The translations under genes and the position numbers were made by a program. 64,000 nt of DNA from Agaricicola taiwanensis (lineage in GTDB: Bacteria; Pseudomonadota; Alphaproteobacteria; Rhizobiales; Methylopilaceae), in the NCBI RefSeq assembly GCF_014635245.1, contig NZ_BMCP01000002.1:310001-374000 (forward strand), in the 5' to 3' direction. Below, one piece after another: positions 1,860 through 56,283 of the stretch; position 1 is the first letter of the stretch, and each line of letters starts with the position of its first letter. The notes under the pieces were generated by a model. It was not told the DNA's origin. It did no database searches and saw only the letters and a program-made list of their open reading frames with translations.

Positions 1860-1893
1860 TCCTGACGCTGAAGCGTCACCTGGTCCTGTTATA

Positions 1894-1919
1894 TGCCCGG
1901 CCCTCGTGCCGGGCATTTT
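1894..1919 (+). terminator. Rho-independent terminator after rpoD
   Basis: The 8-base arm TGCCCGGC pairs with GCCGGGCA across a 6-base loop and is followed by a short T run. It lies 35 bases after the rpoD stop and just before the next gene, so it probably ends the rpoD transcript. Confidence 0.75.
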
Positions 1920-1937
1920 CACGAGAGTTAGACCGCC

Positions 1938-2975
1938 ATGGATACCGTCACTCAGATGCTCTTCGGCGCGACGGTCGCGCAGGCGGGCTTCCGTCGCAGG
2001 CTCGGGCGCAAAGCCCTGGTGGTCGGCGCCATCATGGGGCTCATCCCCGATCTCGACGTTGCGGTCGGCTGGATCTGGGGGCCTTTCGCGAGTTGGCAGT
2101 ATCATCGCGCTTTCACCCATTCGCTGCTGTTCGGCCCGCTGGTGGGGCCGATCTTCGCCTGGATGATCTGGCGCTGGCAGCGAAGCAGACATCCCGCTCT
2201 GACTGCAGATGAGGAGCAGCACATGCTCCGGGCATGGGTCTGGCTCTGTGTGCTGGGGCTCTTCACGCATCCTTTGATCGACGCCTTTACCAGCTACGGC
2301 ACACAGCTGCTGTGGCCGATCACTACGACGCGCTTTGCCATCAATTCCATGCCGATCATCGATCCGCTCTATTCGCTGGTGCTGATCGCGGCCGTTGCGG
2401 TGGGCATCGCGGTCAAGAAGAGGCCGCGGCTGGCGCAGGACGTGGCGGCGGCGGCTCTGCTGTTCATCGTGCTCTACTCGCTCGGCGGATGGGCTCTCAA
2501 CACACAGGTGGAGCGGGTCGCTCGGGAACAGTTCGCAAGAGCAGGCGAGGTCACCGCCTATCCGTTGTTGTTTCAGCCCTATTATCGTCGCGTGCTGGTG
2601 ACGACACCTGATACCGCTTACGTGGGCTACTATTCGGTGCTCAACCCCAAGCCCATTGATTTCCAGGAATTTCCCATCGCCAGCGGCCCCGAGGTCGAGG
2701 CGGTGAGGGCGACGCATGAGGGAGCCGTGTTCGAGTGGTTCTCCATGAACAAGCCTTTGTGGCGGTCAACACCACAGCAGGATGGCTCGCGCATCGTGGA
2801 AGGCTATGACCTGCGCTATGGCATGCCTGGTCCCTCGAACCTCAGCATGTGGGGCGTGCGCGCCCGTGTGATGCCCGACGGAACGCTCGCCGGGCCAGTG
2901 GAGCGCTTCTCGACACCGCGCGAGGCCACTGGTGATCAGTTCCGCCAGTTCTGGCACGACATGACCGGTCTCTAA
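1938..2975 (+). CDS. YdjM-type metal-dependent membrane hydrolase (DUF457 family)
   Basis: A 345-residue inner-membrane protein of the YdjM/DUF457 family (predicted metal-dependent hydrolases related to phospholipase C-like membrane enzymes). The N-terminus MDTVTQMLFGA followed by GLIPDLDV and YHRAFTHSLLF carries the family's conserved Asp and His residues, likely metal ligands. Several hydrophobic segments lie in the first 200 residues and a more polar domain follows. The substrate is unknown. It has its own start after the rpoD terminator and is probably transcribed alone. The family call is firm; the function is not. Confidence 0.85.
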   Translation: MDTVTQMLFGATVAQAGFRRRLGRKALVVGAIMGLIPDLDVAVGWIWGPFASWQYHRAFTHSLLFGPLVGPIFAWMIWRWQRSRHPALTADEEQHMLRAWVWLCVLGLFTHPLIDAFTSYGTQLLWPITTTRFAINSMPIIDPLYSLVLIAAVAVGIAVKKRPRLAQDVAAAALLFIVLYSLGGWALNTQVERVAREQFARAGEVTAYPLLFQPYYRRVLVTTPDTAYVGYYSVLNPKPIDFQEFPIASGPEVEAVRATHEGAVFEWFSMNKPLWRSTPQQDGSRIVEGYDLRYGMPGPSNLSMWGVRARVMPDGTLAGPVERFSTPREATGDQFRQFWHDMTGL

Positions 2976-3061
2976 CGGCATCAGCGAGCGCTGAGCTTTC
3001 GGAACATCCTCGTCATTCCCGCGCTTAAGGTGCAGCGCTAACCGCAGGATTCTGAACAGGC

Positions 3062-4342
3062 ATGATGTCTCGCTGGCAATGGCTGCTGCGCCAGATGGTG
3101 CGGCAGATCTGGTTTCGCACCACCTTGTTCTCCGTTCTCGCTGTGCTCACGGCGCTGATCGCGATCTGGTCGAAGCCTTTGATCCCGACGGATATGCCGG
3201 CGAAGATTGGCTCCGACGCCGTCGACAACATCCTTGGTATCATTGCCTCCAGCATGCTGGCGGTGACCACCTTCTCGCTCAGCACCATGGTGTCCGCCTA
3301 TTCGGCCGCGACGAGCAATGTCACGCCGCGCGCGACGAAGCTGCTCATCGAAGATTCGACCACACAGAACGCACTGGCCACCTTCATAGGCTCATTTCTC
3401 TATAGCCTCGTCGCTATCATCGCCTTGGCGACAGGTCTTTACGGCGCTGAGGGAAGGGTGGTTGTCTTCATCGTCACTATCGGCGTGATCGTGGTGATCG
3501 TGGTGATGCTCCTCCGGTGGATCAATCATCTGTCGCGGCTTGGGAGGGTTGGCGAGACCACGGACAGGGTCGAGGCCGCCACCCGCGCGGCGGTGGAAGA
3601 CCGAAGGGAGGCGCCATGCATGAGGGCGCGGGAGTTGAGAGATGAAGGGATGATCCCTTCAGGTGCCCGCGCAATTCATGCCGAGGCAATCGGTTATGTG
3701 CAGCATATCGATGTGAAAGCTTTGTCCCGCATTGCCAAAGAAGGCCGATCGACCGTCTATGTCACCGCCTTGCCAGGGTCCTTTGCTGATCCGTCACGGC
3801 CCTTGGCCTGGGTAGAGGGAAGCGAGAGCGAGGAGCGGATCGACGAATGGCGCACAGCCTTTTCCATTGCCGATCATCGTTCGTTCGATCAGGACCCACG
3901 GTTCGGCTTCTGCGTGCTGTCGGAGATCGCGTCGCGGGCGCTCTCGCCGGCGGTCAATGATCCCGGCACGGCGATCGATGTTATCGGGCGCGGGGTGCGG
4001 CTTCTCGCGCTGTGGCAGGAACCGCCGAATGCTGATGACGAAGATGACGTAACATACGAGCGTGTTTATGTGCCGCGCATCCAACTGGCGGATATCTTCG
4101 AAGATTTCTTTTCACCCATCGCTCGAGATGGAGCAGCCATGATGGAAGTATCGCTGCGTCTCCTCAAAGGGCTTCGCACCCTTGCCAGGTTGGGTGACGC
4201 GGAGATGCTGGCAACGGCGCAGGTTCACGCGCGGCTCGCGTTTAAAAGGGCCGATGCAGTGCTTACCCTCGACGAGGAGAAGGAGCGTCTGGCCGCCCTG
4301 GCGCAGGAGATCATGTCCATCGGTCGGGGTACGGCCTTGTAA
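3062..4342 (+). CDS. DUF2254 family membrane protein
   Basis: A 426-residue predicted inner-membrane protein matching DUF2254. Four hydrophobic segments lie in the first 160 residues (two before residue 80, then FIGSFLYSLVAIIALATG and a Val/Ile-rich segment near 140). The family-typical stretch SAYSAATSNVTPRATKLL connects them. The C-terminal 250 residues are soluble and include ALSPAVNDPGTA, another conserved family element. Function is unknown. The start is ATG at 3062, 86 bases after the preceding stop. Confidence 0.85.
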   Translation: MMSRWQWLLRQMVRQIWFRTTLFSVLAVLTALIAIWSKPLIPTDMPAKIGSDAVDNILGIIASSMLAVTTFSLSTMVSAYSAATSNVTPRATKLLIEDSTTQNALATFIGSFLYSLVAIIALATGLYGAEGRVVVFIVTIGVIVVIVVMLLRWINHLSRLGRVGETTDRVEAATRAAVEDRREAPCMRARELRDEGMIPSGARAIHAEAIGYVQHIDVKALSRIAKEGRSTVYVTALPGSFADPSRPLAWVEGSESEERIDEWRTAFSIADHRSFDQDPRFGFCVLSEIASRALSPAVNDPGTAIDVIGRGVRLLALWQEPPNADDEDDVTYERVYVPRIQLADIFEDFFSPIARDGAAMMEVSLRLLKGLRTLARLGDAEMLATAQVHARLAFKRADAVLTLDEEKERLAALAQEIMSIGRGTAL

Positions 4343-4392
4343 TCGGTGCCTGACATGCCGATGTGTCCACTACCTTCCTTTATGGAGGCAAC

Positions 4393-5403
4393 ATGCCGCC
4401 CATCTCCGTTCTTGATCTCGCTTTCATTCCGCAGGGCTCGACCGCGTCCGATGCCCTTCATCGCTCTCTCGATCTCGCCCAGCATGCGGAGCAATGGGGA
4501 TACAAGCGCTTCTGGCTGGCCGAGCACCACAACATGGTGGGCATCGCCAGCGCGGCGACCTCGGTGGTCATCGGGCATATCGCCAGCGGCACCAAGACCA
4601 TAAGAGTTGGCGCGGGCGGCATCATGCTGCCGAACCACGCGCCCATGATCATCGCTGAGCAGTTCGGCACATTGGAGAGCCTTTATCCGGGACGCATCGA
4701 TCTTGGTCTTGGCCGCGCGCCCGGCACCGATCAACGGACGCTGAGGGCGCTCCGCCGCGATCCTTCCGCCTCCGATGCCTTCCCGCAGGATGTGCTGGAG
4801 CTTCAGGCCCTGCTCGGCCCACTTGAGGAGGGGCAGGTGATCCAGGCGGTGCCAGGCACCGGGACACAGGTGCCGTTGTGGATTCTCGGATCAAGCCTCT
4901 TCGGCGCACAACTGGCCGCTATGCTCGGCCTGCCATATGCCTTTGCCTCACATTTCGCACCCGGCGCCCTCATGCAGGCCCTGGAAGCCTACCGCGCGCG
5001 CTTTCAACCTTCCGAGCAGCTCGATCGCTCCTATGCCATGGCTGGTGTGAACGTCATCGCCGCCGAGACGGACGAGGAGGCGCGGCGCCTTTTTACTTCC
5101 GCGCAGCAGCAGTTCGCCAATATGTTTCGCGGTACGCGCGGAAAGTTGCCGCCGCCCATCGATGATATCGAAGCCTATTGGTCGCCGATGGAGAAGGATC
5201 AAGCCTCGGCCATGCTGGCCTGTTCCTTTGTCGGCTCGCGCGACACCGTCCGCCGCGGCCTGAAGGCATTTCTGGATAATACCGGGGTCGACGAGATCAT
5301 CATAGCCGCGGCGATCTATGATCATGCCGCTCGTCTGCGGTCTTATGAGATCGCGGCAGATATCTTCGCAGAACTTTCGCAGGAAAACCTGACGAAGGCC
5401 TGA
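4393..5403 (+). CDS. LLM-class flavin-dependent oxidoreductase (luciferase-like, YhbW type)
   Basis: A 336-residue member of the bacterial luciferase-like monooxygenase superfamily (TIM barrel, FMN-dependent). The N-terminal [10 protein letters not shown], the WLAEHHNM motif and [10 protein letters not shown] are characteristic of the single-subunit MsnO8/YhbW branch. The start chosen is ATG at 4393, preceded by GGAGG at good spacing; an upstream in-frame start at 4363 would add ten residues without such a site. The substrate is unknown and the neighbours (DUF2254, MscS) give no pathway hint. Confidence 0.88.
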
Positions 5404-5501
5404 GGTTGACCGTGCCGGTCATCAAACTTAGGCTTCGGGATTATCGTTGGCCTGATCTTCCTGGATCATCTTGGCCCATATCTCCATCCCCGACGTCGTG
5501 T

Positions 5502-5524
5502 AAGGCGGAGTTGATCCGCCTTTT
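5502..5524 (+). terminator. Rho-independent terminator after the LLM oxidoreductase
   Basis: Eight-base arms (AAGGCGGA and TCCGCCTT) flank a 5-base loop and end in a T run. The hairpin sits about 100 bases after the oxidoreductase stop and 28 bases before the MscS start, separating the two transcripts. Confidence 0.7.
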
Positions 5525-5551
5525 GTCGTTGTCACCACAGAAGGGAAAGCT

Positions 5552-6658
5552 GTGTCTGCGTCGATCGAAAATCTGGTCAACCTGGAAATCTATGGCAACT
5601 CGCTGATCGTCTGGTGCCTCTCGATCTTTTTCAGCATTGTCGTCTACAGCGTTGCTGTTACCGCGCGCCGGGTGGCGAGACGCCGCTTTCCGCTCCACAC
5701 AGGCGGCGATGGTCTCTTTATTACGCAGTTCCTTGGAGCTCAGGCACGGGCAACGCAGCAGTTCTTTCTTGTGGCGCTGGCTTTGGGCACATTGGCTTAC
5801 CTGCTGATATTGCCTACCCGCATCGAGGGTATCCTGGCGGCTCTGGTGACGATCGCAGTCATGGTCCAGGTCGGCATCTGGGCCACCGCGGCCCTTGCCT
5901 TGTGGATCGCGCGTTACCTTGCCCGCACCACGGATCGTGATCCGGCCAGCGCCAGCGCGGCGCAGATCATCCAGTTCCTGTGTCAGGTCGTGATCTGGTC
6001 CGCGCTTTTGATGCTGACACTGAGCAACTTCGGCGTTGATATCACCGGTCTTATCGCCGGTCTTGGTGTCGGCGGTGTTGCGATTGCCTTTGCCTTGCAG
6101 AGCGTTTTACGTGACCTGTTCGCGTCCCTGGCCATTGTGCTCGACAAGCCGTTCGTGATCGGAGATTTCATCGTTTTCGGAAATCACCTCGGAACGGTCG
6201 AGCGGGTGGGTCTCAAGACCACGCGGATCCGCAGCCTGTGGGGCGAGCAGATCAGTGTTTCCAATGATGATCTTCTGAACACGCGAGTTCAGAACTACAA
6301 GCGTATGCGCGAGCGTCGCATCTCCTTCAACGTCGTGGTGCCTTACGAGACGTCACCCGACAATCTGGAGGCGATCCCCGGTCTCATCCGGGACATCATC
6401 GAAGGAACTGAAAAGACACGCTTCGACCGCTCACATGTGGCGGCTTTCGAAGAATTCGGCGCGCGGGTGGAAACGATCTACTTTGTCCTCTCGCCGGACT
6501 TCAACCTCTACATGGACATCCAGCAGTCCATAAATCTCGGTATCGCCCGGGCCTTCGCAGAGCGTGGCATCCGCTTCTCCTATCCGACGCGGCGGCTGGT
6601 GTCCGAGAATGGCGAAGAGCTGGCGCTGTTGAAGCACCTCGACCCGGTGCAGACGTGA
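5552..6658 (+). CDS. MscS-family mechanosensitive ion channel
   Basis: A 368-residue small-conductance mechanosensitive channel homologue that would release solutes on hypo-osmotic shock. Four hydrophobic segments are visible in the first 190 residues. The pore helix is Gly/Ala-rich (LIAGLGVGGVAIAFALQ) and is followed by the beta domain signature KPFVIGDFIVFGNHLGTVE and the C-terminal alpha/beta domain. The start is GTG at 5552 with AAGGGA about 6 bases upstream. It is longer than E. coli MscS (286 residues) because of extra N-terminal membrane segments. A terminator precedes it, so it is probably transcribed alone. Confidence 0.9.
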   Translation: MSASIENLVNLEIYGNSLIVWCLSIFFSIVVYSVAVTARRVARRRFPLHTGGDGLFITQFLGAQARATQQFFLVALALGTLAYLLILPTRIEGILAALVTIAVMVQVGIWATAALALWIARYLARTTDRDPASASAAQIIQFLCQVVIWSALLMLTLSNFGVDITGLIAGLGVGGVAIAFALQSVLRDLFASLAIVLDKPFVIGDFIVFGNHLGTVERVGLKTTRIRSLWGEQISVSNDDLLNTRVQNYKRMRERRISFNVVVPYETSPDNLEAIPGLIRDIIEGTEKTRFDRSHVAAFEEFGARVETIYFVLSPDFNLYMDIQQSINLGIARAFAERGIRFSYPTRRLVSENGEELALLKHLDPVQT

Positions 6659-36082: not shown

Positions 36083-37162
36083 ATGGCCACTGTCCGGCTC
36101 TCTACTCTCAAGAAGGTCTTCGGCACCAACGCTCCCGCCGTCGATGTGGATGAACTGAAGATCGAGAATGGCGAATTCCTCACACTGCTGGGGCCTTCGG
36201 GCTGCGGAAAATCCACGCTTCTGCGCATGCTGGCAGGGCTGGAAACGCCCACCAGCGGGCGCATCATGTTCGATGAGCGGATCGTCAACGAACTTGATCC
36301 CGCCGAGCGCAACATCGCCATGGTGTTCCAGAACTACGCGCTCTATCCGCATATGACTGTCGCGGAGAACGTCGGCTATCCCTTGAAGAAGCGCGGAGTT
36401 CCCAAAGACGAACGCACCGCACGGATCGCGGAGATCGCGGCGCTCCTGAAGATCGACATGCTGCTTGATCGCAAGCCGCGCCAGCTTTCCGGTGGCCAGC
36501 AGCAGCGCGTCGCCCTGGGGCGGGCGATGATCCGAAACCCGGCCGTCTATCTGTTCGACGAACCGCTTTCAAACCTGGACGCGGCCTTGCGCTCCTATAT
36601 GCGCAACGAATTGATCCGGCTGCACGCCAAGCTGCGCGGCACCATGGTGTTCGTCACGCATGATCAGGTGGAGGCCATGACGATGTCCACTCGCATCGCC
36701 GTCATGGAGGCAGGCTGCATCCAGCAGCTTGCCACGCCCGATGAGATCTATGAGCGGCCGGCGACGAAATTCGTGGCCGGATTCGTCGGCACGCCCGCCA
36801 TGAATTTCATTGAGGCCGAGGTTGTGCCCGATGGTGCAACGGCCCGGATCAAGGCCGGTGATTTTACGCTTGATGTCACGCAGCCGGATGGCATGACGGC
36901 ACCTCTGCAGGGGCCGCTTACCTTGGGTATCAGGCCGGAGCACATCCTGCTGGGGCAGGGCACCGACAAGGCCGAGATCACGGTGGTGGAGTCCCTCGGA
37001 AACGAGCAGATCATCACCATAGACACCGGACGCCGCGAACTGGTGTTGCGCTCCACGAGCGGCGAGAAGCATCGCATCGGCGAGCATGTCACCTACGCCC
37101 TGCGGCCCGACCGCCTTCACTTCTTCGCCGCTGATACGGGCCGTCGCATCGGCCCGAACTGA
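36083..37162 (+). CDS. ABC transporter ATPase, UgpC/MsmK type
   Basis: A 359-residue ATPase. Walker [10 protein letters not shown], signature [15 protein letters not shown], Walker [14 protein letters not shown] and the H-loop [11 protein letters not shown] are intact. The C-terminal regulatory TOBE/MalK-type domain includes [13 protein letters not shown]. It energises the two permeases before it. The first amidohydrolase starts 34 bases later on the same strand, so importer and hydrolases form one operon. Confidence 0.92.
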
Positions 37163-37196
37163 GGTCGCGACGGCAAACTCCCGAGGATCGCCCAAA

Positions 37197-38471
37197 ATGC
37201 CCGAGTTTCTTCTGCATAACCTTCGCCTGCTCGACCCCGAGGCAGGGCGGCTCGTGTCCGGCATGAAGGTGCTGGTGCGCGATGACCGGTTCGTTGGCGT
37301 CGGCTCTGATGTGGATGCGCCGCCGGAAGTGCCGCGGCTCGACCTTGGCGGCCGGGTGCTGATGCCAGGGCTGATCGATTGCCATGCCCACATCATGTCC
37401 ATCAAGACCAAATGGGCCAACAATACCTTGATGCATATGACGCATTCCTTCGCGAATGCGGCGGCGGCGATCAAGCTGCGCAAGATCCTGATGCGCGGCT
37501 TCACCACCATCCGCGACGCGGCGGGTGCCGACATGGGCCACCGCGACGCGGTCGCCAGTGGCCTGCTGGTCGGTCCGCGCCTCTTCGTCTGTGGGCGCGG
37601 CATCAGCCAGACCGGCGGGCATGGCGACTTCCGCACCCGCGTCGATCACGCCTTTCCCTGCGCCTGTCATCACCTCTCGGCCGGGACCACCGGCGGCATC
37701 GCACGACTGGCTGATGGCGTGACGGAAGTGCGCCGCGCGGTGCGTGACGAGATCCGGCTGGGCGCCGATCAGATCAAGGTCTTCGCCTCCGGCGGTGTCG
37801 GCTCCGATGCCGATCCCATTCACTTCCTGCAGTATTCGATGGATGAGCTCAGGGCCATCGTGGAGGAAACCGAGAACGGCGCGACCTATGCCATGGCCCA
37901 TGCCTATACCGCCGAGGCCATTTACCGTGCGGTCGACGCCGGCATCCGCACCATCGAGCATGGCAACTTCCTCGATGCGCATGCCGCCGATCTCATGGCC
38001 GAACGCGAGGCCTATCTCGTGCCGACGCTGGTCGCCTATGAGGCGACCATGAAGTTCGGACGTGAGCAGGGCTACCCCGAGCAGAACATGAAGAAGAACG
38101 AATATGTCCTCTCCGTCGGCACGCAGTCGCTGGAGGTGGCGAAGGCCGCCGGTGTGAAGACCGCCTTCGGGACAGACCTCATCGGGGAGCTCGACAGTCA
38201 CCAGAGTGAGGAATTCGAGATCCGCGCCCGGGTTCTCTCCAACGCTGAAGTCATTCGCAGCGCCACCACCATCGCTGCCGAGGTGGTTCGCCGGGTGGGC
38301 GAACTCGGCGTCATTGCCGAAGGTGCTTACGCCGATGCCTTGGTGCTCGACGGCAATCCGCTTGAGGATATCGGTCTTCTCGCCAGCGGCGGCGACGACA
38401 TTCGCGTCATCATGAAGGACGGCAAGCTCTGGAAGAACGAGCTCGGTCTTCAACTGGGCGGGGAGGCGTGA
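37197..38471 (+). CDS. Metal-dependent amidohydrolase (first of tandem pair)
   Basis: A 424-residue amidohydrolase-superfamily protein of the imidazolonepropionase/Xaa-Pro dipeptidase-like group. Metal ligands appear in order: HAH in GLIDCHAHIMS, the Lys of DQIKVFASGG, His in MAHAYTAEA and TIEHGNFLD, and Asp in AFGTDLIGELD. It would hydrolyse a C-N bond, in a dipeptide, cyclic amide or imide. The start is ATG 37197. The neighbour at 38474 has the same length and closely similar sequence throughout. Confidence 0.88.
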   Translation: MPEFLLHNLRLLDPEAGRLVSGMKVLVRDDRFVGVGSDVDAPPEVPRLDLGGRVLMPGLIDCHAHIMSIKTKWANNTLMHMTHSFANAAAAIKLRKILMRGFTTIRDAAGADMGHRDAVASGLLVGPRLFVCGRGISQTGGHGDFRTRVDHAFPCACHHLSAGTTGGIARLADGVTEVRRAVRDEIRLGADQIKVFASGGVGSDADPIHFLQYSMDELRAIVEETENGATYAMAHAYTAEAIYRAVDAGIRTIEHGNFLDAHAADLMAEREAYLVPTLVAYEATMKFGREQGYPEQNMKKNEYVLSVGTQSLEVAKAAGVKTAFGTDLIGELDSHQSEEFEIRARVLSNAEVIRSATTIAAEVVRRVGELGVIAEGAYADALVLDGNPLEDIGLLASGGDDIRVIMKDGKLWKNELGLQLGGEA

Positions 38472-38473
38472 TC

Positions 38474-39748
38474 ATGGCTGATGTCTTCTTCCACAACCTG
38501 CGCCTGCTCGACCCCGAAGCCGGACAGCTGAAGCCCGGCATGTGCGTTCTCATGCGTGGCAACCGCTTTATCGGTGTGGGTGAGCAGGTCGAGGCACCCT
38601 CCGACGCGGTGAAGATCGATCTTGGCGGTCGTGTGATGATGCCGGGCCTGATCGACTGCCACGTGCATGTGACATCGATCAAGACGGTCTGGGCCAACAA
38701 GTCCTATATGTTCCTGCTGCCCTCGGCAGTCGCTGCCGCCACATGGAGCCGCATGCAGAAGATGCTCATGCGCGGCTTCACCACCGCGCGCGATGTGGGC
38801 GGTGCCGATATGGGACATCGCGAGGCGGTGGAGCAGGGGCTTGTCATCGGCCCGCGCCTCTTCGTCTGCGGACGATCCATCAGCCAGACCGGCGGCCATG
38901 GTGACCAGCGGACACGGGTCGATCATCCCGTGCCATCCAACTCCTTCCACTTCACTGGGGGTGTTTCCGGCAACCGCCGCGTGGCGGACGGTGTCGATGA
39001 GGTGCGCCGCGCGGTGCGTGATGAAATCCGCCTCGGCGCCGATCACATCAAGCTGCAGGTCGGCGGCGGCGTCGGCTCGCCGGCCGATCCGATCCATTTC
39101 GTGCAGTATTCCATGGAAGAGCTGCGCGCTGCCGTGGAAGAAGCGGCCAATGCCCATACCTATGTCGCCTGCCATTCCTATACGGCAAAGGCGGTGGCGC
39201 GCGCGGTGAGGGCGGGCATCCGCACCATCGAACATGCCAACTTCCTCGATGCTCCCACCGCCGATCTCATGGTGGAGCATGGCGCCATCATGGTGCCGAC
39301 GCTCGTCGCCTATGAGGCGACCATGAAATTTGGCGCGCAGCAGGGCTATCCCGCTGAAAACCTGAAGAAGAACGAGCGGGTTCTTGCCGTGGGCACGACC
39401 TCGCTTGAGATCGCCAAGGCAGCCGGCGTACCCATGGCTTTCGGCACCGACCTGATCGGCGAACTCGACGGCTATCAGAATGACGAGTTTGAGATCCGGT
39501 CGCGCGTTCTGTCCAACGCCGAGATCATCCACAGCGCCACCGTCATGGGCGCGGAAGTGGTGCGGCGTAAGGGCGAGCTCGGTGTGATCGCCGAAGGTGC
39601 CTTCGCCGATGCGCTGGTGCTTGACGGCAATCCGCTTGATGACATCAATCTTCTCGCCAGCGGCGGACCCGACTTCAAGGTCATCCTCGCCAATGGGCAG
39701 ATCGTGAAGGATGAGGAAGGGCTGACCGGACTGCCTGTCGCCGGCTAG
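38474..39748 (+). CDS. Metal-dependent amidohydrolase (second of tandem pair)
   Basis: A 424-residue paralogue of the preceding gene. The ligand motifs are the same type: HVH in GLIDCHVHVTS, Lys in DHIKLQVGGG, His in ACHSYTAKA and TIEHANFLD, Asp in AFGTDLIGELD. The start chosen is ATG 38474, with GGGGAGG 8 bases upstream; a GTG at 38468 overlapping the previous stop is also possible. Differences in the Lys segment (VFAS versus LQVG) suggest the two enzymes differ in substrate. A strong bidirectional terminator follows. Confidence 0.88.
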   Translation: MADVFFHNLRLLDPEAGQLKPGMCVLMRGNRFIGVGEQVEAPSDAVKIDLGGRVMMPGLIDCHVHVTSIKTVWANKSYMFLLPSAVAAATWSRMQKMLMRGFTTARDVGGADMGHREAVEQGLVIGPRLFVCGRSISQTGGHGDQRTRVDHPVPSNSFHFTGGVSGNRRVADGVDEVRRAVRDEIRLGADHIKLQVGGGVGSPADPIHFVQYSMEELRAAVEEAANAHTYVACHSYTAKAVARAVRAGIRTIEHANFLDAPTADLMVEHGAIMVPTLVAYEATMKFGAQQGYPAENLKKNERVLAVGTTSLEIAKAAGVPMAFGTDLIGELDGYQNDEFEIRSRVLSNAEIIHSATVMGAEVVRRKGELGVIAEGAFADALVLDGNPLDDINLLASGGPDFKVILANGQIVKDEEGLTGLPVAG

Positions 39749-39822: not shown

Positions 39823-40782
39823 TCAGGCGTGTGCCGGAACGGGCGCCTTGCATGCCTGGAGCGCGCGCTCCAGCAGTGCGAGTTCCTCCTTTGGCACGGT
39901 CGCCAATGGCGGCCGCACGCTGTCGCTTTCGATCACGCCGAGGATGGTGAGGCAGGCCTTCAGCCGCGCCACGGCGCGCGACGCGGGGGCGTTGCGATAG
40001 ATGAGGGTTGCCAGTGGCTGGATCTGCTGGTGCAGCGCTTTTGCGCGTGACCAGTCCTGCGCCTGGGCCGAGGCCCAGAGATCGCAGATCAGCCCTGGGA
40101 TTACAGCCGCCAAGCTGACCTGACTGCCTTCGGTGCCGATAAGATAGTTGACCAAAAGATGCTCGTCACCGGAACCATAGACGGTGATGTCGGGACGCCT
40201 GGCCTTGATCTCGTCGCGGACGAGTTCGGTCATGGCGATTTCCCAGCTCCCGTCCTTGACGCCTCGGACGCGCTCCAGACCCACCAGCTCTCGGATCACC
40301 TCGAAGGAATAGGCGAACTTCCCTGAATTGACCGGTGCCTGATAAAACATCAGCGGCGTTGTCACCGCATCGTGGATCATGCGGTGATGGGTGAGGATGG
40401 AGGAGGGTTCGGCGCCCAGCGCCCAGCTGTTGGGCTGGAACACGAGCAGTGCGTCGGAGCCTGCCTTCTCAAGACGAACCGCCTGCCGCACGGCGTTTTC
40501 GCTGCTTTCCGAATAGACGCCGCTGGTGATCATGATGCGTGACGGCACCACCTCGCGGGTGAGGCGGACGACGCGCTCCTTCTCCTCATCGCTGGTGAGG
40601 CTGTTTTCGCCGGCGTGGCCATTGACCAGAAGGCCGGTGATGCCCTCGTGGCCCATGATGAATTCCAGCTGCCGACGGTAGCCGTTTTCATCCAGGCTGT
40701 AGTCCGAACGGTAGGGAAGGACGACCGCCGCATGGATGCCGGCAGTGAAGGCGGAATGTGCACTGGTGATGGTGTTTGGCAA
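39823..40782 (-). CDS. DapA-family lyase (dihydrodipicolinate synthase superfamily), NGHAGE subtype
   Basis: A 319-residue class I aldolase-type TIM barrel. The Schiff-base Lys lies in GVKDGSWE and the catalytic Tyr is kept in MFYQAPVNSG. The pyruvate-carboxylate loop, usually GTTGE, reads LLVNGHAGENSL. Members of the superfamily cleave or condense 2-keto acids. A true lysine-pathway DapA is unlikely, given the altered loop and catabolic context. The start is TTG at 40782. A copy of the putative LysR operator lies at 40835-40863. Confidence 0.85.
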   Translation of the reverse strand: MPNTITSAHSAFTAGIHAAVVLPYRSDYSLDENGYRRQLEFIMGHEGITGLLVNGHAGENSLTSDEEKERVVRLTREVVPSRIMITSGVYSESSENAVRQAVRLEKAGSDALLVFQPNSWALGAEPSSILTHHRMIHDAVTTPLMFYQAPVNSGKFAYSFEVIRELVGLERVRGVKDGSWEIAMTELVRDEIKARRPDITVYGSGDEHLLVNYLIGTEGSQVSLAAVIPGLICDLWASAQAQDWSRAKALHQQIQPLATLIYRNAPASRAVARLKACLTILGVIESDSVRPPLATVPKEELALLERALQACKAPVPAHA

Positions 40783-42471: not shown

Positions 42472-43413
42472 ATGATAGTGACCATGAGCTCGCTGCATAA
42501 CTTCTTGTCTGGTCTGGACCTGCGCAAGATCAAGCACATGCTGGCGCTGGCCGAGCATGGCTCGTTCTGCAAGGCCGCCGAAGCCATGAACATCACCCAG
42601 CCGGCGCTGAGCCGCAGCATCCAGTCGCTGGAGGATGCACTCGGCGTGAGGCTGTTCGACCGTGCGTCGCGCAACATCCAGCTCACTCCGGTTGGTTATC
42701 TCGGCATCGAAGCGGCGCGGCAGATCTTGGCAAGCGCGGCGGAGTTTCATCGCATGGTCGGCCATGCCGACCTCGACGAGATCGGTGAACTGAAGATCGG
42801 GCTCGGCAATGTGACCTCGGCGCTGTTCGGCCCACCGCTGTTGCGTGGATTCGCCGAGCGGCATCCGCAGCTTCGGCTCATCCTCCAAGTCGATGCGCCG
42901 GAGAAGCTTTATGACATGCTGCTCACCGAACGCATCGATGTGGTGGTCGGCAATACGGAGGCCATGCCGTCGTTCGTCGAATTCGACATTGATACGGTCG
43001 GATCGTTCCAGCGCGGCTTCTTTGCCCGCGCCGGCCATCCTCTGTGCGAGAAGGAGGTCCTGACCACCGACGATCTGGCGGCCTATGCGGTGGGGGCCAC
43101 TTACCCGCTGCCGGAGTCGGTCGTTAAAACCATCAAGAACACCTATGGTTTCGGTTCGGTCGATGCCTTCTTCCGTCTTCGCTCCAACCACTATGGGGCA
43201 CTGGTCGATCTCATGCTCAACAGCGATGCGGTGGTCTTCGGGTCGAACATTGCCTACCTCAGGCAGTTCCGGGCAGGCGAGGTGGTCCAACTCAATGTGA
43301 CGCCGCTGTTCCCGGCAGACATGCCCCTAACGATCGCATCCGTGGCGGGGCGCACCATCTCGCCGACCGCACCGCTGATCGGCTCCATCATCCGCGAAAG
43401 CATTGCCGCCTAG
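42472..43413 (+). CDS. LysR-family regulator of the amidohydrolase/amidase locus (inferred)
   Basis: A 313-residue LysR-type regulator. The N-terminal helix-turn-helix reads HGSFCKAAEAMNITQPALSR, then SIQSLEDALGVRLFDRASR; the co-inducer domain begins near LKIGLGNVTSALFGPPLL. ATG 42472 is used; ATG 42484 is the alternative. Three GCAT-N7-ATGC-N7-GCAT sites lie before nearby operons (32.8, 40.8 and 43.4 kb). This is the only LysR gene near them, so it is the leading candidate to bind them. Confidence 0.88.
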   Translation: MIVTMSSLHNFLSGLDLRKIKHMLALAEHGSFCKAAEAMNITQPALSRSIQSLEDALGVRLFDRASRNIQLTPVGYLGIEAARQILASAAEFHRMVGHADLDEIGELKIGLGNVTSALFGPPLLRGFAERHPQLRLILQVDAPEKLYDMLLTERIDVVVGNTEAMPSFVEFDIDTVGSFQRGFFARAGHPLCEKEVLTTDDLAAYAVGATYPLPESVVKTIKNTYGFGSVDAFFRLRSNHYGALVDLMLNSDAVVFGSNIAYLRQFRAGEVVQLNVTPLFPADMPLTIASVAGRTISPTAPLIGSIIRESIAA

Positions 43414-43448: not shown

Positions 43449-43509
43449 AGCGCGCTATCCAAAGGTGGCAGGTTTCGGTCGTGTCCTCGGCAACGATCGG
43501 GAGGAAGTG

Positions 43510-43728
43510 ATGTCCACCGCAGATCCCCTGTGGGTTGAATTCAGCACTCTCTTCAAACGCTCCGGCCTCAGCCTGCCGGAGGAACGACAGCCCGTGCTCT
43601 TTGCCGCCTACCGTGAGGTGAGGGCCTGGAGCGACACCATTCGTGCCTGGGAAAACCCGCCAGCTGCGGAACCAGCCAATGCCTATGCGGTCGCCTCCAT
43701 CCTGCGCGCGGGCGAGGTGGCGCGATGA
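43510..43728 (+). CDS. AtzG-like small amidase partner (DUF4089 type)
   Basis: A 72-residue helical protein: MSTADPLWVEFSTLFKRSGL, then LPEERQPVLFAAYREVRAW, and a Pro/Ala-rich end. Size and layout resemble AtzG and GatC, small subunits that bind and stabilise amidase-signature enzymes; AtzG partners AtzE in cyanuric acid breakdown. The start ATG 43510 follows GGGAGGAAG. The next gene, an AtzE-like amidase, overlaps by four bases (ATGA), which strongly supports a protein complex. It is easily missed in automatic annotation because it is so short. Confidence 0.75.
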   Translation: MSTADPLWVEFSTLFKRSGLSLPEERQPVLFAAYREVRAWSDTIRAWENPPAAEPANAYAVASILRAGEVAR

Positions 43729-45146
43729 GCGATCCCGATCCGTCCCTGTGGCCCATCGCCCAGGCATCCGCCGCCATCGCCGCCGGACGGCTGTCGCCGG
43801 TCGAGCTCGTTGAGGCGACGCTGGCGCGAGTCGAAACCTATGATGGCGCTCTCAACAGCTTCGCGACCCTTGCCAGCGACCACGCCCGGGCGGCCGCCCA
43901 TCGGGCCGAGGCCGAGATTCGCGACGGGCGGCGGCGCGGCCCGTTGCATGGCATCCCGTTCGCCACCAAGGACAATTACGACAGCGCCGGCATCCTGACA
44001 GCCTGTCAGTCGCATATGCGACGTGATCATGTGCCGACAAAGAGCGCCGCAGCCATCGAGCGGATGGAGCAGGCGGGCGCCATCCTCATCGGCAAATGCG
44101 CTACGGCGGAATTCGGGACGGGTGGTCCGAGCCCCGGCATGCTTTTTCCTCCGGCTCGAAATCCTTGGGATCATCAACGCTATACGGGTGGATCTTCAAC
44201 CGGATCTGGAGCCGCAGTGGGCGCCGGCCTCCTGCGGGTGGCGCTCGGTTCCGACACCGGCGGCTCCGTGCGCGGACCGGCGGCTTTCTGCGGGGCGGTC
44301 GGCCTGAAGCCAACCTATGGTCTGGTCTCCCGCCGCGGCGTGTTTCCCTTGTCGTTTTCGCTCGATCACTGCGGGCCGATTGCACGGTCGGTGGAGGATG
44401 CCGCCATTACGCTTGGCGGCATGGCCGGTCCCGACCCGCTGGATCCCGCGAGCGCCATGGTCGATGCGGGAGACTATGTCAGCCAGCTTCGCACCGGCTT
44501 GCGAGGTCTTCGAATCGGTTATCTCAGATCGTGGCCCGCCAAGGATCCCATCACCGATCCTGAGGTTATGGCCGCACTCGATACAGCGGCGGCGATGTTC
44601 CAGGATCTCGGGGCGATGGTGGAAGAAATCGCCTTTGAGGATGAGGACATTTTCCTAGCGGTCGGGCGGACGATCCTGATCTCCGAATATTACGCCGTGC
44701 ATCAGGAAAACCTCCTGCGCCGCCCGGAGCTCTACGAGCGCCCTGCACGCGAAAGGCTGATGGTGGGCGCCTTCGCGCGCGCTTCCGATTACGTGGATGC
44801 GCTGCGGGTGCGCCGCAGGCTGGCACTTGCGTTCAACAACGACATCATGGCTCGATACGATCTCGTGCTCACATCATCGGCGGTGCGGCCCGCCTGGCGG
44901 TTGGATGAAATGCCGGATGAACCAATGCACATGCTCGGCCTGACCACCTATGCCTTCAACGTGACGGGAAATCCGGCGATGTCGCTGCCGTCAGGCTTCA
45001 GCTCGGCAGGATTGCCGTTGTCGCTGCAGATCATAGGGCGCATGTTCGACGAAGCCACGGTGCTGAGAGCCGGCGCTGCCTATGAGGAAGCGACCAATTG
45101 GATGACGCGCCGGCCGGCTCTTGCAAAGGCAGTCCAGGCGGCATGA
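43725..45146 (+). CDS. AtzE-like amidase (amidase signature family)
   Basis: A 473-residue amidase. The Ser-cisSer-Lys triad is visible: Lys82 in PFATKDNYD, Ser157 in YTGGSSTGSG and Ser181 in GSDTGGSVRGPAA, with spacing identical to known members of the family. It hydrolyses an amide to acid and ammonia. Its coupling to an AtzG-like gene suggests an AtzE-type (1-carboxybiuret hydrolase-like) complex, but the substrate may differ, since no cyanuric acid hydrolase is present here. The dihydropyrimidinase gene begins 31 bases later. Confidence 0.88.
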   Translation: MSDPDPSLWPIAQASAAIAAGRLSPVELVEATLARVETYDGALNSFATLASDHARAAAHRAEAEIRDGRRRGPLHGIPFATKDNYDSAGILTACQSHMRRDHVPTKSAAAIERMEQAGAILIGKCATAEFGTGGPSPGMLFPPARNPWDHQRYTGGSSTGSGAAVGAGLLRVALGSDTGGSVRGPAAFCGAVGLKPTYGLVSRRGVFPLSFSLDHCGPIARSVEDAAITLGGMAGPDPLDPASAMVDAGDYVSQLRTGLRGLRIGYLRSWPAKDPITDPEVMAALDTAAAMFQDLGAMVEEIAFEDEDIFLAVGRTILISEYYAVHQENLLRRPELYERPARERLMVGAFARASDYVDALRVRRRLALAFNNDIMARYDLVLTSSAVRPAWRLDEMPDEPMHMLGLTTYAFNVTGNPAMSLPSGFSSAGLPLSLQIIGRMFDEATVLRAGAAYEEATNWMTRRPALAKAVQAA

Positions 45147-45177: not shown

Positions 45178-46587
45178 ATGATACTCGATGTGGCCATTCG
45201 CGGAGGAACGGTCGTGACGGCCGCGGATACCATGCGCTGCGACGTCGGCATCAAGGACGGACGCATCGTGCTTCTGGCGGAAGATATCACCGAGGCAAAC
45301 GAGGTGATCGACGCGGCCGGCAAATATGTGCTGCCCGGCGGCATCGATGCCCATGTCCATATCTCCCAGCCCTCCGGGGAGGGCATCGTCATGGCCGATG
45401 ACTTTGAGACCGGCACCCGTTCCGCGGCGCTGGGCGGGACCACTACGATCCTGCCGTTCTGCCTGCAGGAGAAGGGCCGCTCCATGCGGGAGGTGCTGAA
45501 GGAATATCACGCCAAGGCGGAGGGCGAATGCCATGTGGACGTGAGTTTCCACATGATCATCTCCGATCCGACCGAGCAGCTTCTTGGACAGGACCTGCCG
45601 GCCCTGGTGGCGGATGGCTATACCTCCTTCAAGATCTTCATGACCTATGACGACCTCCGTCTCAACGACCGTCAGATCCTCGATGTCATGGCGGTCGCGC
45701 GTGACACCGGCGCGCTCGTCATGGTGCATGCGGAGAACTACGACGCGATCCGCTTCCTGACCGAGCAGATGGAAGCCTCCGGCCGCACGGCTCCGAAGTA
45801 TCATGCGACCTCGCGGCCCATTCCCGTGGAACGGGAAGCGACCCACCGTGCCATCTCGCTGGCGGAAATCGCGGACACGCCGCTCGTGATCGTGCACGTC
45901 TCCAATCGCGAGGCCATGGAGCAGATCCGCTGGGCGCAGAACAAGGGGCTCAACGTCATCGGCGAGACCTGCACGCAGTATCTCGTGCTGACCGCCGATG
46001 ATCTTGACGGGCTCGGCATGGAGGGCGCGAAATATGTCTGTTCTCCGCCGCCGCGCGACAGGGACAGCCAGAAGGCCTGCTGGGAAGGACTGAAGACCGG
46101 CGCTTTCACCTTGTTCTCCTCCGACCACTGCCCTTATCGCTATGATGAGACCGGCAAGCTGACGCCCGAGGGCAAGACCAGCTTCCGCTGGGTTCCAAAC
46201 GGCATTCCCGGCGTCGGCGCCCGTCTGCCGATCCTTTTTTCCGAGGGTGTCGTGAAGGGCCGCATCACCATGGAGACCTTCGTGGCGGTGACGGCGACCA
46301 ATCCCGCCAAGACCTATGGACTTTATCCGCGCAAGGGCACCATCGCCGTTGGCGCCGACGCCGACATCACGCTCTGGGATGCGGACAAGCGGATCTCGCT
46401 GACCCATAATGATCTTCAGGACGGCTGCGATTACACACCGTACGAGGGCATGGAGATCACCGGCTGGCCGGTGCTGACCATGGTGCGCGGTAAGGTGGTG
46501 GCCCGAGAGGGCGCACTGGTCGGCACGAAGGGACATGGGGTTTATCTGCCCCGCGAACTCTCAGCGCACACCCGAGCCCTTGCCTAA
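45178..46587 (+). CDS. Dihydropyrimidinase / D-hydantoinase
   Basis: A 469-residue cyclic amide hydrolase. Zinc ligands are visible: His59 and His61 (GIDAHVHIS), the carboxylated Lys152 (TSFKIFMTYDD), His183 (MVHAENYD), His239 (VIVHVSNREA) and Asp315 (SSDHCPYR). It opens a hydantoin, dihydropyrimidine or similar ring. AAGGAG lies 12 bases before ATG 45178. With the amidase before it, ring opening then amide cleavage form a logical sequence. The gene ends overlapping the asparaginase remnant by four bases on the opposite strand. Confidence 0.92.
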   Translation: MILDVAIRGGTVVTAADTMRCDVGIKDGRIVLLAEDITEANEVIDAAGKYVLPGGIDAHVHISQPSGEGIVMADDFETGTRSAALGGTTTILPFCLQEKGRSMREVLKEYHAKAEGECHVDVSFHMIISDPTEQLLGQDLPALVADGYTSFKIFMTYDDLRLNDRQILDVMAVARDTGALVMVHAENYDAIRFLTEQMEASGRTAPKYHATSRPIPVEREATHRAISLAEIADTPLVIVHVSNREAMEQIRWAQNKGLNVIGETCTQYLVLTADDLDGLGMEGAKYVCSPPPRDRDSQKACWEGLKTGAFTLFSSDHCPYRYDETGKLTPEGKTSFRWVPNGIPGVGARLPILFSEGVVKGRITMETFVAVTATNPAKTYGLYPRKGTIAVGADADITLWDADKRISLTHNDLQDGCDYTPYEGMEITGWPVLTMVRGKVVAREGALVGTKGHGVYLPRELSAHTRALA

Positions 46588-47596
46588 TCCTGGCCGCTGA
46601 ACTGCGCGAAGGCGGCGGCAATGTCCGCTTTCGCCGGAGAGCGGTGGCGGAGCAGGAGAGACAGCAATACCCGCGCCTTGGGGCCGTCCAGCCAGCCGGC
46701 CGGAATGAGCCCTTTTTCGAGAAGGTCGATCTCGCCTCCGGTATAACCGTAGGTCTTTTGCAGGACCGGCCCGCCGCCGGTTCGGGATGCCAATATGACC
46801 GGCATCCGCTCAGCCGCTGACATCAGCTCCCTGGCGGTCCGTGGCGAGCTGTGCCCGCCGCCGAGGCTTCGACGACCATGCCGTCGAAACCGGCATCGCG
46901 TGCCAGCGCAACGAGCGCTCCGTCGTCATCCATGGAAAGCGTCACGAGGGCAACCCGCGCTTCACGCGGCGAGGGGCTGGGTTCGACGTGCGGACGCATG
47001 CCCACACCGCGTGACCAGATGTGCACCCGCCCTTCGGCGACGAATCCGGCGGGGCCGGTATTGGGCGAGACAAAGGCGGCCGTGCTGCTGGTGTGCCGCT
47101 TGCAGACGTGGCGCGCCAGATGGATTTCATCGTTGAAGGTGACGATGACCCCAAGGCCGCGCGCACCCGCGCTGGCTGCCGTGCGGACCGCGGCCAGCAG
47201 ATTGGCAGGGCCATCCGCCCCGGCGAGCGTGGGGCTCCGCATTGCTCCTGTCACGACGACCGGAGCATTGGCGTCCAGCAGAAGATCGAGCGCGAAGGCG
47301 GCTTCCTCGATGGTATCGGTGCCTTGGGTGATCACGACACCATCGGCGCCCTCACGGAAATTGTCGCCGATGGCGGAAGCAAGCGCTTCAAGATCGGCGA
47401 AGGTCAGGTGAGGGCTGGGGACCTGGCGGAAAGAACGGGCGCTGAGATTGGGATAGCCGCTGAGAGCCGGCACGGCGGCGACCAGTTCTGCGGCGGAAAG
47501 CTTCGGTGATACGCCGGCTGCCGCATCTGTCATGGCGATGGTGCCGCCCAGTGCCATCACAACGATGGCGGCCTTGTTCGGCTCGGCGTCCACCAT
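46584..47596 (-). pseudogene. Asparaginase family gene split by a one-base deletion
   Basis: Type I/II L-asparaginase-like gene. The N-terminal part (257 codons, 47596-46823) has MALGGTIAMTD and VITQGTDTIEEAAFALD with both catalytic Thr regions. It ends wrongly after FDGMVVEAS. The C-terminal part is open in another frame (MPVILASRTGGGPVLQKTYG, family-typical). If one G is added in the GC-rich run at about 46853-46866, the frame reads VVEASGGGHSSP and joins both parts into about 334 residues. Either the gene is inactive or this is a sequencing error. It is last in the leftward operon and overlaps the GntR gene by one base. Confidence 0.85.
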
Positions 47597-51143: not shown

Positions 51144-52079
51144 TCAGGCCGCAGCTTTGAGGCCGGCGTCGTCGACGGTGGCGATCACCCGCTTGATGGT
51201 GTCTTTCGGCACCGGAAGCAGCGGCGGCCGGGGCCGGGCGCTGGCAATGATGCCCATGTGCTCCAGCCCCACCTTGAGGCGCGTGTGCATGTCGATCAGC
51301 GGCGGTGAGCCATAGATCGTGCGCACGATGGGATAGAGCCGGTCGTTGACCGCGCGCATGGCCTTGAGATCGCCGGCTTCGGTCGCGGCCCACAGATCGC
51401 ACAGCATATGCGGGATCATGCTGGCCATGCCGGAGAGGATGCCATCGGCGCCGGTGGCGACCTGCGCGAACAGCCAATGGTAGTTGGACGGCAGGATGGC
51501 GACCTTCGGCGCTGCTGCCTTGAGAAGGCGGAGATTGTCCTCGTAAAGGGTGATGTCGCCGCTGCCTTCCTTGATGGCGATCACGCGCTCGCGCTTCACC
51601 AGTTCAAGAAGCACGGGCGTGGTGAAGCCCAAGCCGGCGCTGACCGCCTGTTGGAAGATCGACACCGGCAACTTCACGGCGTTGAGGACGGTGTCGACAT
51701 AATCGACGGCGTAGCGCGGATCGGATGAAGCGCCAGCTGAAAACTGCGGCATGGGGAAGAGCACCGCCACGTCGACGCCGTTGTCCTCCGCCTCTTTCGC
51801 CTGCTCGATCGCGTCCGCCGTGGAATAGGGGATGATCCCCGTCAGCAGGGGCACATCATCGCCGATGAAGGCGCGGGTGCGCTTGATCACCTCGACCCGT
51901 TCCGCCGGTGTCAGCGTTGCGCCTTCGCCGGCATGGCCGTTGACGAAGACAGCACTCATGCCCTTGGGCGTGGTGCAGTACTCAAGCAGCCGGTCATAGC
52001 TTTTCCAGTCGATGGACAGGTCTTCCTTGAAGGGAAGGACGGTTGCGACGGTGACGCCATTCAGAGAAATCGTCTTCAT
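51144..52079 (-). CDS. DapA-family lyase, NGHAGE subtype lacking the catalytic Tyr
   Basis: A 311-residue DapA-superfamily TIM barrel. The Schiff-base Lys is in AIKEGSGDITL, and the carboxylate loop reads VFVNGHAGEGATL instead of GTTGE, as in the gene at 39.8 kb. Where most members have Tyr (LYNVP-type motif) it has SIFQQAVSAG, so the residue aligned to Tyr133 of DapA seems to be Gln. That suggests altered chemistry. It sits in the leftward operon between the CoA-transferase and AllA genes. Confidence 0.85.
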   Translation of the reverse strand: MKTISLNGVTVATVLPFKEDLSIDWKSYDRLLEYCTTPKGMSAVFVNGHAGEGATLTPAERVEVIKRTRAFIGDDVPLLTGIIPYSTADAIEQAKEAEDNGVDVAVLFPMPQFSAGASSDPRYAVDYVDTVLNAVKLPVSIFQQAVSAGLGFTTPVLLELVKRERVIAIKEGSGDITLYEDNLRLLKAAAPKVAILPSNYHWLFAQVATGADGILSGMASMIPHMLCDLWAATEAGDLKAMRAVNDRLYPIVRTIYGSPPLIDMHTRLKVGLEHMGIIASARPRPPLLPVPKDTIKRVIATVDDAGLKAAA

Positions 52080-55239: not shown

Positions 55240-55308
55240 GGCTTCTCCTGCCGCATAAAAGGGCATGTGGGGCGGAGAATGATTTATTTCCGCCGCTGAG
55301 ATCAATTG

Positions 55309-55335
55309 TTGACAGACGATCTGATCAAATGTCAA
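55309..55335. promoter_or_regulatory. Putative GntR operator and inverted repeat in the divergent promoter
   Basis: TTGACA at 55309-55314 and TGTCAA at 55330-55335 form an inverted repeat. Inside, the segment from 55319 reads ATCTGATCAAATGTC, resembling the palindrome at 54850. It lies in the 162-base region between the tautomerase and DapA-family genes, so it may control both directions. Confidence 0.5.
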
Positions 55336-55401
55336 CCTCCGAACGTCGGGTTAGATCGAGCCATAAATCGGCAGCCTGAGAGGAACAGCAGGGGACATTG
55401 C

Positions 55402-56283
55402 ATGGCGGCATTTCGCGGCAGCTACACAGTTATGGTTACGCCCTTCGACGATGGGGGGCGGCTTGACGAGCAGCGCCTGCGCCAGTTCGTGGACTGGCAG
55501 ATCGAGCAGGGCGTGCAGGGCCTGATCCCGCTCGGCAGCACCGGTGAATTCCTTTCGTTGACGCGAGAGGAGCGGCGGGCAGTCGGCGCGATCGTGGTGG
55601 AACAGGCGGCGGGCCGTGTGCCTGTATTGGTCGGCACGGCTGCCGAATGGACCGATGAGGCAGTGGCCTTCAGCAAGGAGGCGGAGGGCTATGGCGCGGA
55701 TGGCGTGATGGTCGTGCCGCCGTACTATTCCTCACCCACGGAAGAGGAGATCTTCACCCATTACCGGCGGATCGGGGAAGCGATCTCCATACCGGTCATG
55801 GCCTATAACAATCCCTACACATCCAACGTCGACCTCAAGGCACCGCTGGTGGCGCGGCTCTCAGAGATCGACAACGTCTCCTACATCAAGGAATCCAGCG
55901 GCAGCGTCACGCGCACCACGGAGATCCTGCGACTTTGCGGCGACCGCATGACGGTTTTCGCGGGATACCACCCCTGGGAGGGCTATCTTGTCGGTGCCCA
56001 GGGCTATGTTTCGGTTTTCTCCAACATCGCACCGGGGCTCTCAACCGAGCTGTTTCAGACGACTGTCGATCAGCGAGACCCGGAAGGTGGGCGGCGCATC
56101 TATCACCGCGTCCTGCCCTTGCTGGAGGCGCTCAGCGGTGACCTCTATGTCTCCGCCACCAAGGCGGCTCTCGGTCTCATCGGCATGCCGGTAGGACATC
56201 CGCGCGCGCCGCGCCTGCCTTTGCCGGCCGATCGCGTTGCACCGCTGCGCGCGGTGCTGAAGGATCTGGGGCTTCTGCAATAG
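55402..56283 (+). CDS. DapA-family lyase (canonical loop)
   Basis: A 293-residue dihydrodipicolinate synthase-superfamily protein. The carboxylate loop is LIPLGSTGEFLSL, near canonical, the Tyr is kept in VMAYNNPYTSN, and the Schiff-base Lys is in YIKESSGSV. The start ATG 55402 has AGGGGA upstream; an earlier in-frame start at 55306 would cover the operator region. It is 83 bases before the TRAP binding-protein gene and likely co-transcribed. Its role is probably a 2-keto acid aldolase or dehydratase. Confidence 0.87.
   Translation: MAAFRGSYTVMVTPFDDGGRLDEQRLRQFVDWQIEQGVQGLIPLGSTGEFLSLTREERRAVGAIVVEQAAGRVPVLVGTAAEWTDEAVAFSKEAEGYGADGVMVVPPYYSSPTEEEIFTHYRRIGEAISIPVMAYNNPYTSNVDLKAPLVARLSEIDNVSYIKESSGSVTRTTEILRLCGDRMTVFAGYHPWEGYLVGAQGYVSVFSNIAPGLSTELFQTTVDQRDPEGGRRIYHRVLPLLEALSGDLYVSATKAALGLIGMPVGHPRAPRLPLPADRVAPLRAVLKDLGLLQ

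Follow-up and report, generated by a model that had tools for sequence, protein, structure and literature searches.

An AtzG-type small gene overlaps an amidase-signature gene of a separate branch, next to a hydantoinase gene, in Agaricicola taiwanensis

The window analysed here is a stretch of 64,000 nucleotides from the genome of Agaricicola taiwanensis. It contains a small gene followed by an amidase-signature gene, preceded by a LysR-type regulator gene and followed by a hydantoinase gene (Table 1). The small gene, of 72 codons, overlaps the amidase gene by four bases as originally described, and the ATGA motif at 43725 serves as the stop of the one and the start of the other. This motif, or a close spacing of the two genes, recurs in relatives, and the translation of the two genes is probably coupled through the overlap. 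An in-frame GTG at 43465 is found upstream of the ATG of the small gene; conservation begins only from the ATG. The hydantoinase gene, which the original prediction had already placed beside the pair, begins 31 bp after the amidase on the same strand with scores above the curated cut-offs, and it is the probable third gene of an operon. The LysR-type gene possibly regulates this operon.

Table 1. Position of the genes, motifs and catalytic codons of the locus (window coordinates).
Feature	Position	Strand	Basis or remark
LysR-type regulator	42472..43413	+	PF00126, PF03466; immediately upstream
Shine-Dalgarno-like GGGAGG	43499..43504	+	read directly; five bases 5' of the ATG of the small gene
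AtzG-type small subunit gene	43510..43728	+	72 aa; ATG 43510, stop TGA 43726-43728
Glu54-Pro55 codons of the small gene	43669..43674	+	(nearly) invariant dipeptide of the family
ATGA overlap of small gene stop and amidase start	43725..43728	+	read directly
Amidase-signature enzyme	43725..45146	+	473 aa; PF01425 E = 3e-100
Catalytic Lys82 codon	43968..43970	+	alignment with GatA and AtzE
cis-Ser157 codon	44193..44195	+	alignment with GatA and AtzE
Nucleophile Ser181 codon	44265..44267	+	alignment with GatA and AtzE
D-hydantoinase/dihydropyrimidinase	45178..46587	+	TIGR02033 545.7 bits (cut-off 393.25), NF009941 754.6 (647)

The surroundings form a catabolic region with a sugar-type ABC transporter, two metal amidohydrolases, three enzymes of the DHDPS family, an amine oxidase, an asparaginase, a member of the ureidoglycolate lyase family, a CoA transferase and a TRAP transporter. 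The two metal-dependent amidohydrolases (PF01979) are similar and adjacent (37086-39748) behind the sugar-type ABC transporter, and probably represent a tandem duplication. The three dihydrodipicolinate-synthase family genes (39826-40782, 51147-52079 and 55306-56280) are separate, lying within 17 kb in different neighbourhoods. The L-asparaginase gene (46584-47596) appears to be split by a frameshift or an assembly error, with the N-terminal domain at 46826-47596 (minus strand) and the C-terminal domain at 46587-46823 in different frames.

The full Ser-cisSer-Lys triad announced for the amidase is present. Its residues Lys82, Ser157 and Ser181 are aligned with Lys79, Ser154 and Ser178 of the Staphylococcus aureus GatA, which we take to fill the roles of the catalytic triad. 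The residue Asp425 of GatA (S. aureus numbering), which presumably binds the glutamine substrate, falls opposite a two-residue gap of the amidase in one pairwise alignment. The amidase had been described as AtzE-like, an identity that is not upheld: its scores remain below the cut-offs of both AtzE models, with 296.6 bits for TIGR02715 (cut-off 425.75) and 292.1 for NF006631 (461), and in a tree of 66 amidases it is located outside the clade composed of the six AtzE-type sequences (support 100). The highest score was obtained with the GatA model TIGR00132, also below the cut-off (309.7 bits against 481.1), and the five GatA of the tree form their own clade (support 100), again without the window amidase. 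The latter clusters, with a support of 86, among forms whose small gene is separate and located upstream.

The single sequence of the small protein displays no match in Pfam, NCBIfam or the PDB, nor with the models PF13318 and PF02686. The gene was therefore traced through its relatives, and its designation as AtzG- or GatC-like had to be tested. The best amidase orthologues (47-53% identity) come from seven genomes of the same order, and in each of them an alignable small gene is found directly 5' of the amidase. The same pair occurs in the actinobacterium Actinokineospora globicatena (L011). Among three relatives, the dN/dS of the small gene is about 0.07-0.12, which indicates purifying selection. 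Among the weak matches of the small protein elsewhere in the A. taiwanensis genome and in six relatives, the loci L005 and L006 contain real orthologues, and the other loci inspected (L002, L004, L007-L010) show no pair of small gene and amidase. As an alternative explanation, the small open reading frame might serve as a translational leader or be open by chance, and yield no functional protein. The length of only 72 codons and the absence of database matches for the single sequence would agree with it, but the amino acids are conserved across families, dN/dS is about 0.1, and the small domain is found upstream, downstream and even fused in frame to the amidase. We consider this explanation scarcely credible, and as far as sequence allows it is already refuted. 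The small gene is real and very probably encodes a helper subunit of the adjoining amidase.

The affinities of the small protein were examined with a profile of the close subfamily (n=9), compared with 12 sequences found by the Pfam AtzG-like model and with 30 sequences found by the GatC model. The comparison with the AtzG-like sequences gave one end-to-end alignment of 48 columns with a score of 26.9, against a maximum of 16.4 for 200 column-permuted controls and 10.4 for the reversed control. The comparison with GatC gave a score of 12.7, which was reached by 10 of the 200 controls and is thus no better than these controls. A larger profile of 43 small proteins matched neither AtzG nor GatC among the PDB sequences. 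Even with E relaxed to 0.05, the Pfam AtzG-like model reaches only three of these 43 proteins; with its cut-off of 24 bits, PF13318 matches neither the small protein nor, above this value, any protein of the genome.

The structure predicted by AlphaFold from 43 homologues (mean pLDDT 82) consists of two helices (residues 6-18 and 24-43) followed by a less certain tail that bears the motif Glu-Pro-Ala. In a fold search of the PDB, GatC chains from different structures represent six of the first seven matches, with E-values of 3.8-8.6, none of them individually significant; the AtzG chain 6c62 is absent from the matches of this very short query. Pro55 is invariant and Glu54 is conserved in at least 90% of the 43 sequences. 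This conservation is partly due to selection, because the first harvest of small genes used the filter EP-x(2-4)-F/Y (background rate 58/3000); all the closest orthologues nevertheless contain Glu-Pro, with no exception. Taken together, the profile match, the predicted fold and the association with an amidase strongly support an AtzG-type protein. Of the initial double label, the AtzG part is retained (26.9 against at most 16.4) whereas GatC is related by a shared fold only, sequence-level kinship not being detectable.

These data bear on another reading, in which a GatC paralogue is encoded by the small open reading frame and the two genes form a stray GatCA acting in tRNA transamidation. Both the highest model score of the amidase, obtained with GatA, and the predominance of GatC chains among the fold matches could be cited for it. 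However, that score falls well short of the GatA cut-off, the amidase has its place outside the GatA clade and the small protein has no sequence likeness to GatC. Moreover, no GatB-like gene was detected among the scanned neighbours, and canonical GatC and GatA are encoded together elsewhere in the genome (C2:1111000-1112740). This reading is already disfavoured and we regard it as very improbable. The pair is best read as a two-subunit amidase of AtzG type that branches apart from AtzE and GatA.

The distribution of the partner was established from a census of 58 amidase orthologues sharing 39-53% identity with the window amidase; genes in the G+C-rich loci of relatives were called with a codon-based caller that had been checked on the window. 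A small partner is present for 51 of the 58 orthologues, the census profile being built partly from loci that are also counted, and such partners occur in many bacteria. The partner is located upstream in 36 cases (including five where it forms the C-terminal domain of a preceding amidase), corresponds to a C-terminal extension of the amidase itself in 12 cases and is found downstream in three, one of them weak. No partner was found for the other seven orthologues, and the amidase can thus do without one in some cases. A profile trained solely on stand-alone small genes recognizes the domain in every fused amidase (E = 1.7e-14 to 4e-6). Its position is invariably C-terminal, and nothing is found in the unfused amidases (best E 0.13). 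Seven small genes that are annotated on named plasmids and external to the training set also match the profile (E <=3e-6, database of 1000). All of the 12 fused forms in the 66-amidase tree belong to a single clade with a support of 100, from which we deduce a single fusion event. For the fused relative L014, whose amidase shares 50% identity with that of the window, the predicted fold (pTM 0.93) displays the same two helices in its C-terminal part with high confidence. Each of the branches examined has a GatC- or AtzG-type subunit: GatA has GatC, AtzE has AtzG and the window branch has AtzG-type partners; we therefore propose that the partner was present in the common ancestor and later lost in some lineages, which the data suggest as the simplest reading, the deep branching of the tree being unresolved. 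If so, the partner would not be a relic peculiar to AtzE.

Five loci (L012, L015, L017, L036 and L042; about 650-6380) show tandem arrays of two amidases, each with a C-terminal AtzG-type domain. These amidases are only about 30% identical to the window amidase and constitute a second, more distant family; they are followed by an orthologue of the window amidase that has no partner of its own. The C-terminal AtzG-type domain may act in trans on this partnerless orthologue.

From these arrangements, a separate role could be imagined for the AtzG-type protein, such as the regulation of the hydantoinase or an action in trans on another amidase. Partnerless orthologues that follow an amidase with a C-terminal domain would fit such a role; against it, the domain is fused in frame to this very branch of amidases in 12 orthologues, and most loci are devoid of hydantoinase. 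We judge a separate role improbable. The natural fusions would, at the sequence level, lend indirect support to an obligate complex of small protein and amidase.

It is highly likely, in our opinion, that the two genes encode one enzyme, composed of a catalytic amidase and of a non-catalytic AtzG-type subunit of 72 residues that would pack on the amidase, the overlap coupling their synthesis. With its predicted fold of two helices followed by an extended tail, the small subunit probably sits on the amidase in the way that GatC does on GatA and AtzG on AtzE, which would keep the amidase soluble or assembled. The overlapping start would couple the production of both subunits. We infer the physical binding of the two proteins, as well as the need of the amidase for the small one. 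AtzG is non-catalytic and is required for soluble AtzE (PMC6219798), and by analogy a role in holding the amidase together is probable for the small protein. The substrate hydrolysed by the complex would be a small compound of amide or ureido type; 1-carboxybiuret is improbable.

The absence of cyanuric acid hydrolase and AtzH near the pair, stated at the outset, holds at the scale of the genome, where AtzD (PF09663) has no match and AtzH-like (PF11533) none above the cut-off. A substrate other than that of AtzG-AtzE is likely. A tentative extension of the two-subunit enzyme is that the hydantoinase opens a ring, either hydantoin or dihydropyrimidine, to an N-carbamoyl (ureido) acid whose carbamoyl nitrogen is then taken off by the two-subunit amidase, the pair standing in for a classical carbamoylase. 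It is consistent with the position and the scores of the hydantoinase gene, and with the location on another contig of the only carbamoylase-family gene of the genome above the TIGR01879 cut-off. A divergent hydantoinase-like gene lies directly 5' of the pair of amidase and small genes in two other genomes (L068 and L069), and another one is separated by 1.7 kb from a second amidase of the A. taiwanensis genome. Ureido groups are attacked by other amidase-signature enzymes, namely AtzE (PMC6219798) and AguY, an N-carbamoylputrescine hydrolase (PMC12283126). In contrast, the closest orthologues adjoin genes for a dipeptide ABC transporter, an EamA exporter, an acetamidase/formamidase and members of the isochorismatase family. 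The hydantoinase as conserved neighbour of these orthologues was rejected, their loci being devoid of it. The ureido product of the hydantoinase as substrate is a plausible but weak guess. A broader proposal appears unlikely to us, in which AtzE and GatA are joined by a whole further branch of obligate two-subunit amidases, whose AtzG-type partner mostly has no name and was fused to the catalytic chain once, and in which the window pair acts as a carbamoylase of a new type finishing the hydantoinase reaction.

Among the closest known systems is AtzG-AtzE, the 1-carboxybiuret amidohydrolase of Pseudomonas sp. ADP (PMC6219798; PDB 6c62), where the small partner is also encoded just 5' of the amidase-signature enzyme. 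The triad is common to both amidases, and the distance from the glycine that ends the first helix to the Glu-Pro motif is the same in the AtzG-like sequences compared as in the window small protein. Contrary to AtzG-AtzE, the window pair comprises an amidase of a separate clade and a small protein that remain below the AtzE and PF13318 cut-offs, respectively, and it is followed by a hydantoinase gene without AtzD and AtzH. AtzG-AtzE pairs with AtzH have already been published outside cyanuric acid operons (PMC6219798); these atzG-atzE-atzH clusters represent, as here, an AtzG-type pair in nitrogen catabolism contexts, but they contain AtzE homologues and AtzH, both absent from the window locus. 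GatC-GatA of the bacterial transamidosome shares the amidase fold and the triad with the window pair, and the small protein is similar to GatC in its fold; unlike GatC-GatA, the pair has neither a neighbouring GatB nor sequence likeness to GatC, and the genome has a separate GatCA. The yeast GatF is called a fungal counterpart of GatC (PMC4027206) and represents, as here, an unusual architecture with a GatC-type subunit. GatF belongs to a tRNA-dependent amidotransferase and is not fused to the amidase, unlike the window family. The literature on hydantoinases with amidase-signature enzymes, or on GatC-like proteins with amidases, gave nothing relevant beyond GatF. As far as the literature examined shows, what is new is the distinct branch to which the amidase belongs, the unnamed small partner that is so common in it, the one fusion to the C-terminus and the association with a hydantoinase gene.

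The suggestion that small AtzG-type genes are often missed is contradicted by the records examined. The small gene is annotated in seven of eight public plasmid loci, and mostly remains unnamed ("hypothetical protein" in six cases, "AtzG-like protein" in one). Two-part amidases are commoner than gene names suggest, the amidases of the window branch being annotated as single proteins. If the role of AtzG carries over, many of them would be insoluble or inactive without their small neighbour, and substrate screens would be misled by a partner filed as "hypothetical protein". The natural fusion offers a ready single-chain construct.

Several loci contain additional amidases. Clusters of several paralogous amidases were observed in L094-L095 (G306 contig 48) and L091 (G121), where some amidases have their own small gene in front, a local amplification of two-gene units. 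The A. taiwanensis genome itself encodes two further amidases with small upstream open reading frames, at G000:C1:692027 and C1:696605 (L101). One of the small proteins is clearly AtzG-type (L082) and the other looks degenerate, VPGSTY replacing the EPA motif (L084); the second hydantoinase-like gene of the genome and a TRAP transporter are close to these amidases. Finally, the pair of A. globicatena is located among dioxygenases of the PhyH and TauD types, two NDK-like proteins and an enolase gene, surroundings that, from their gene content, look like a natural-product gene cluster.
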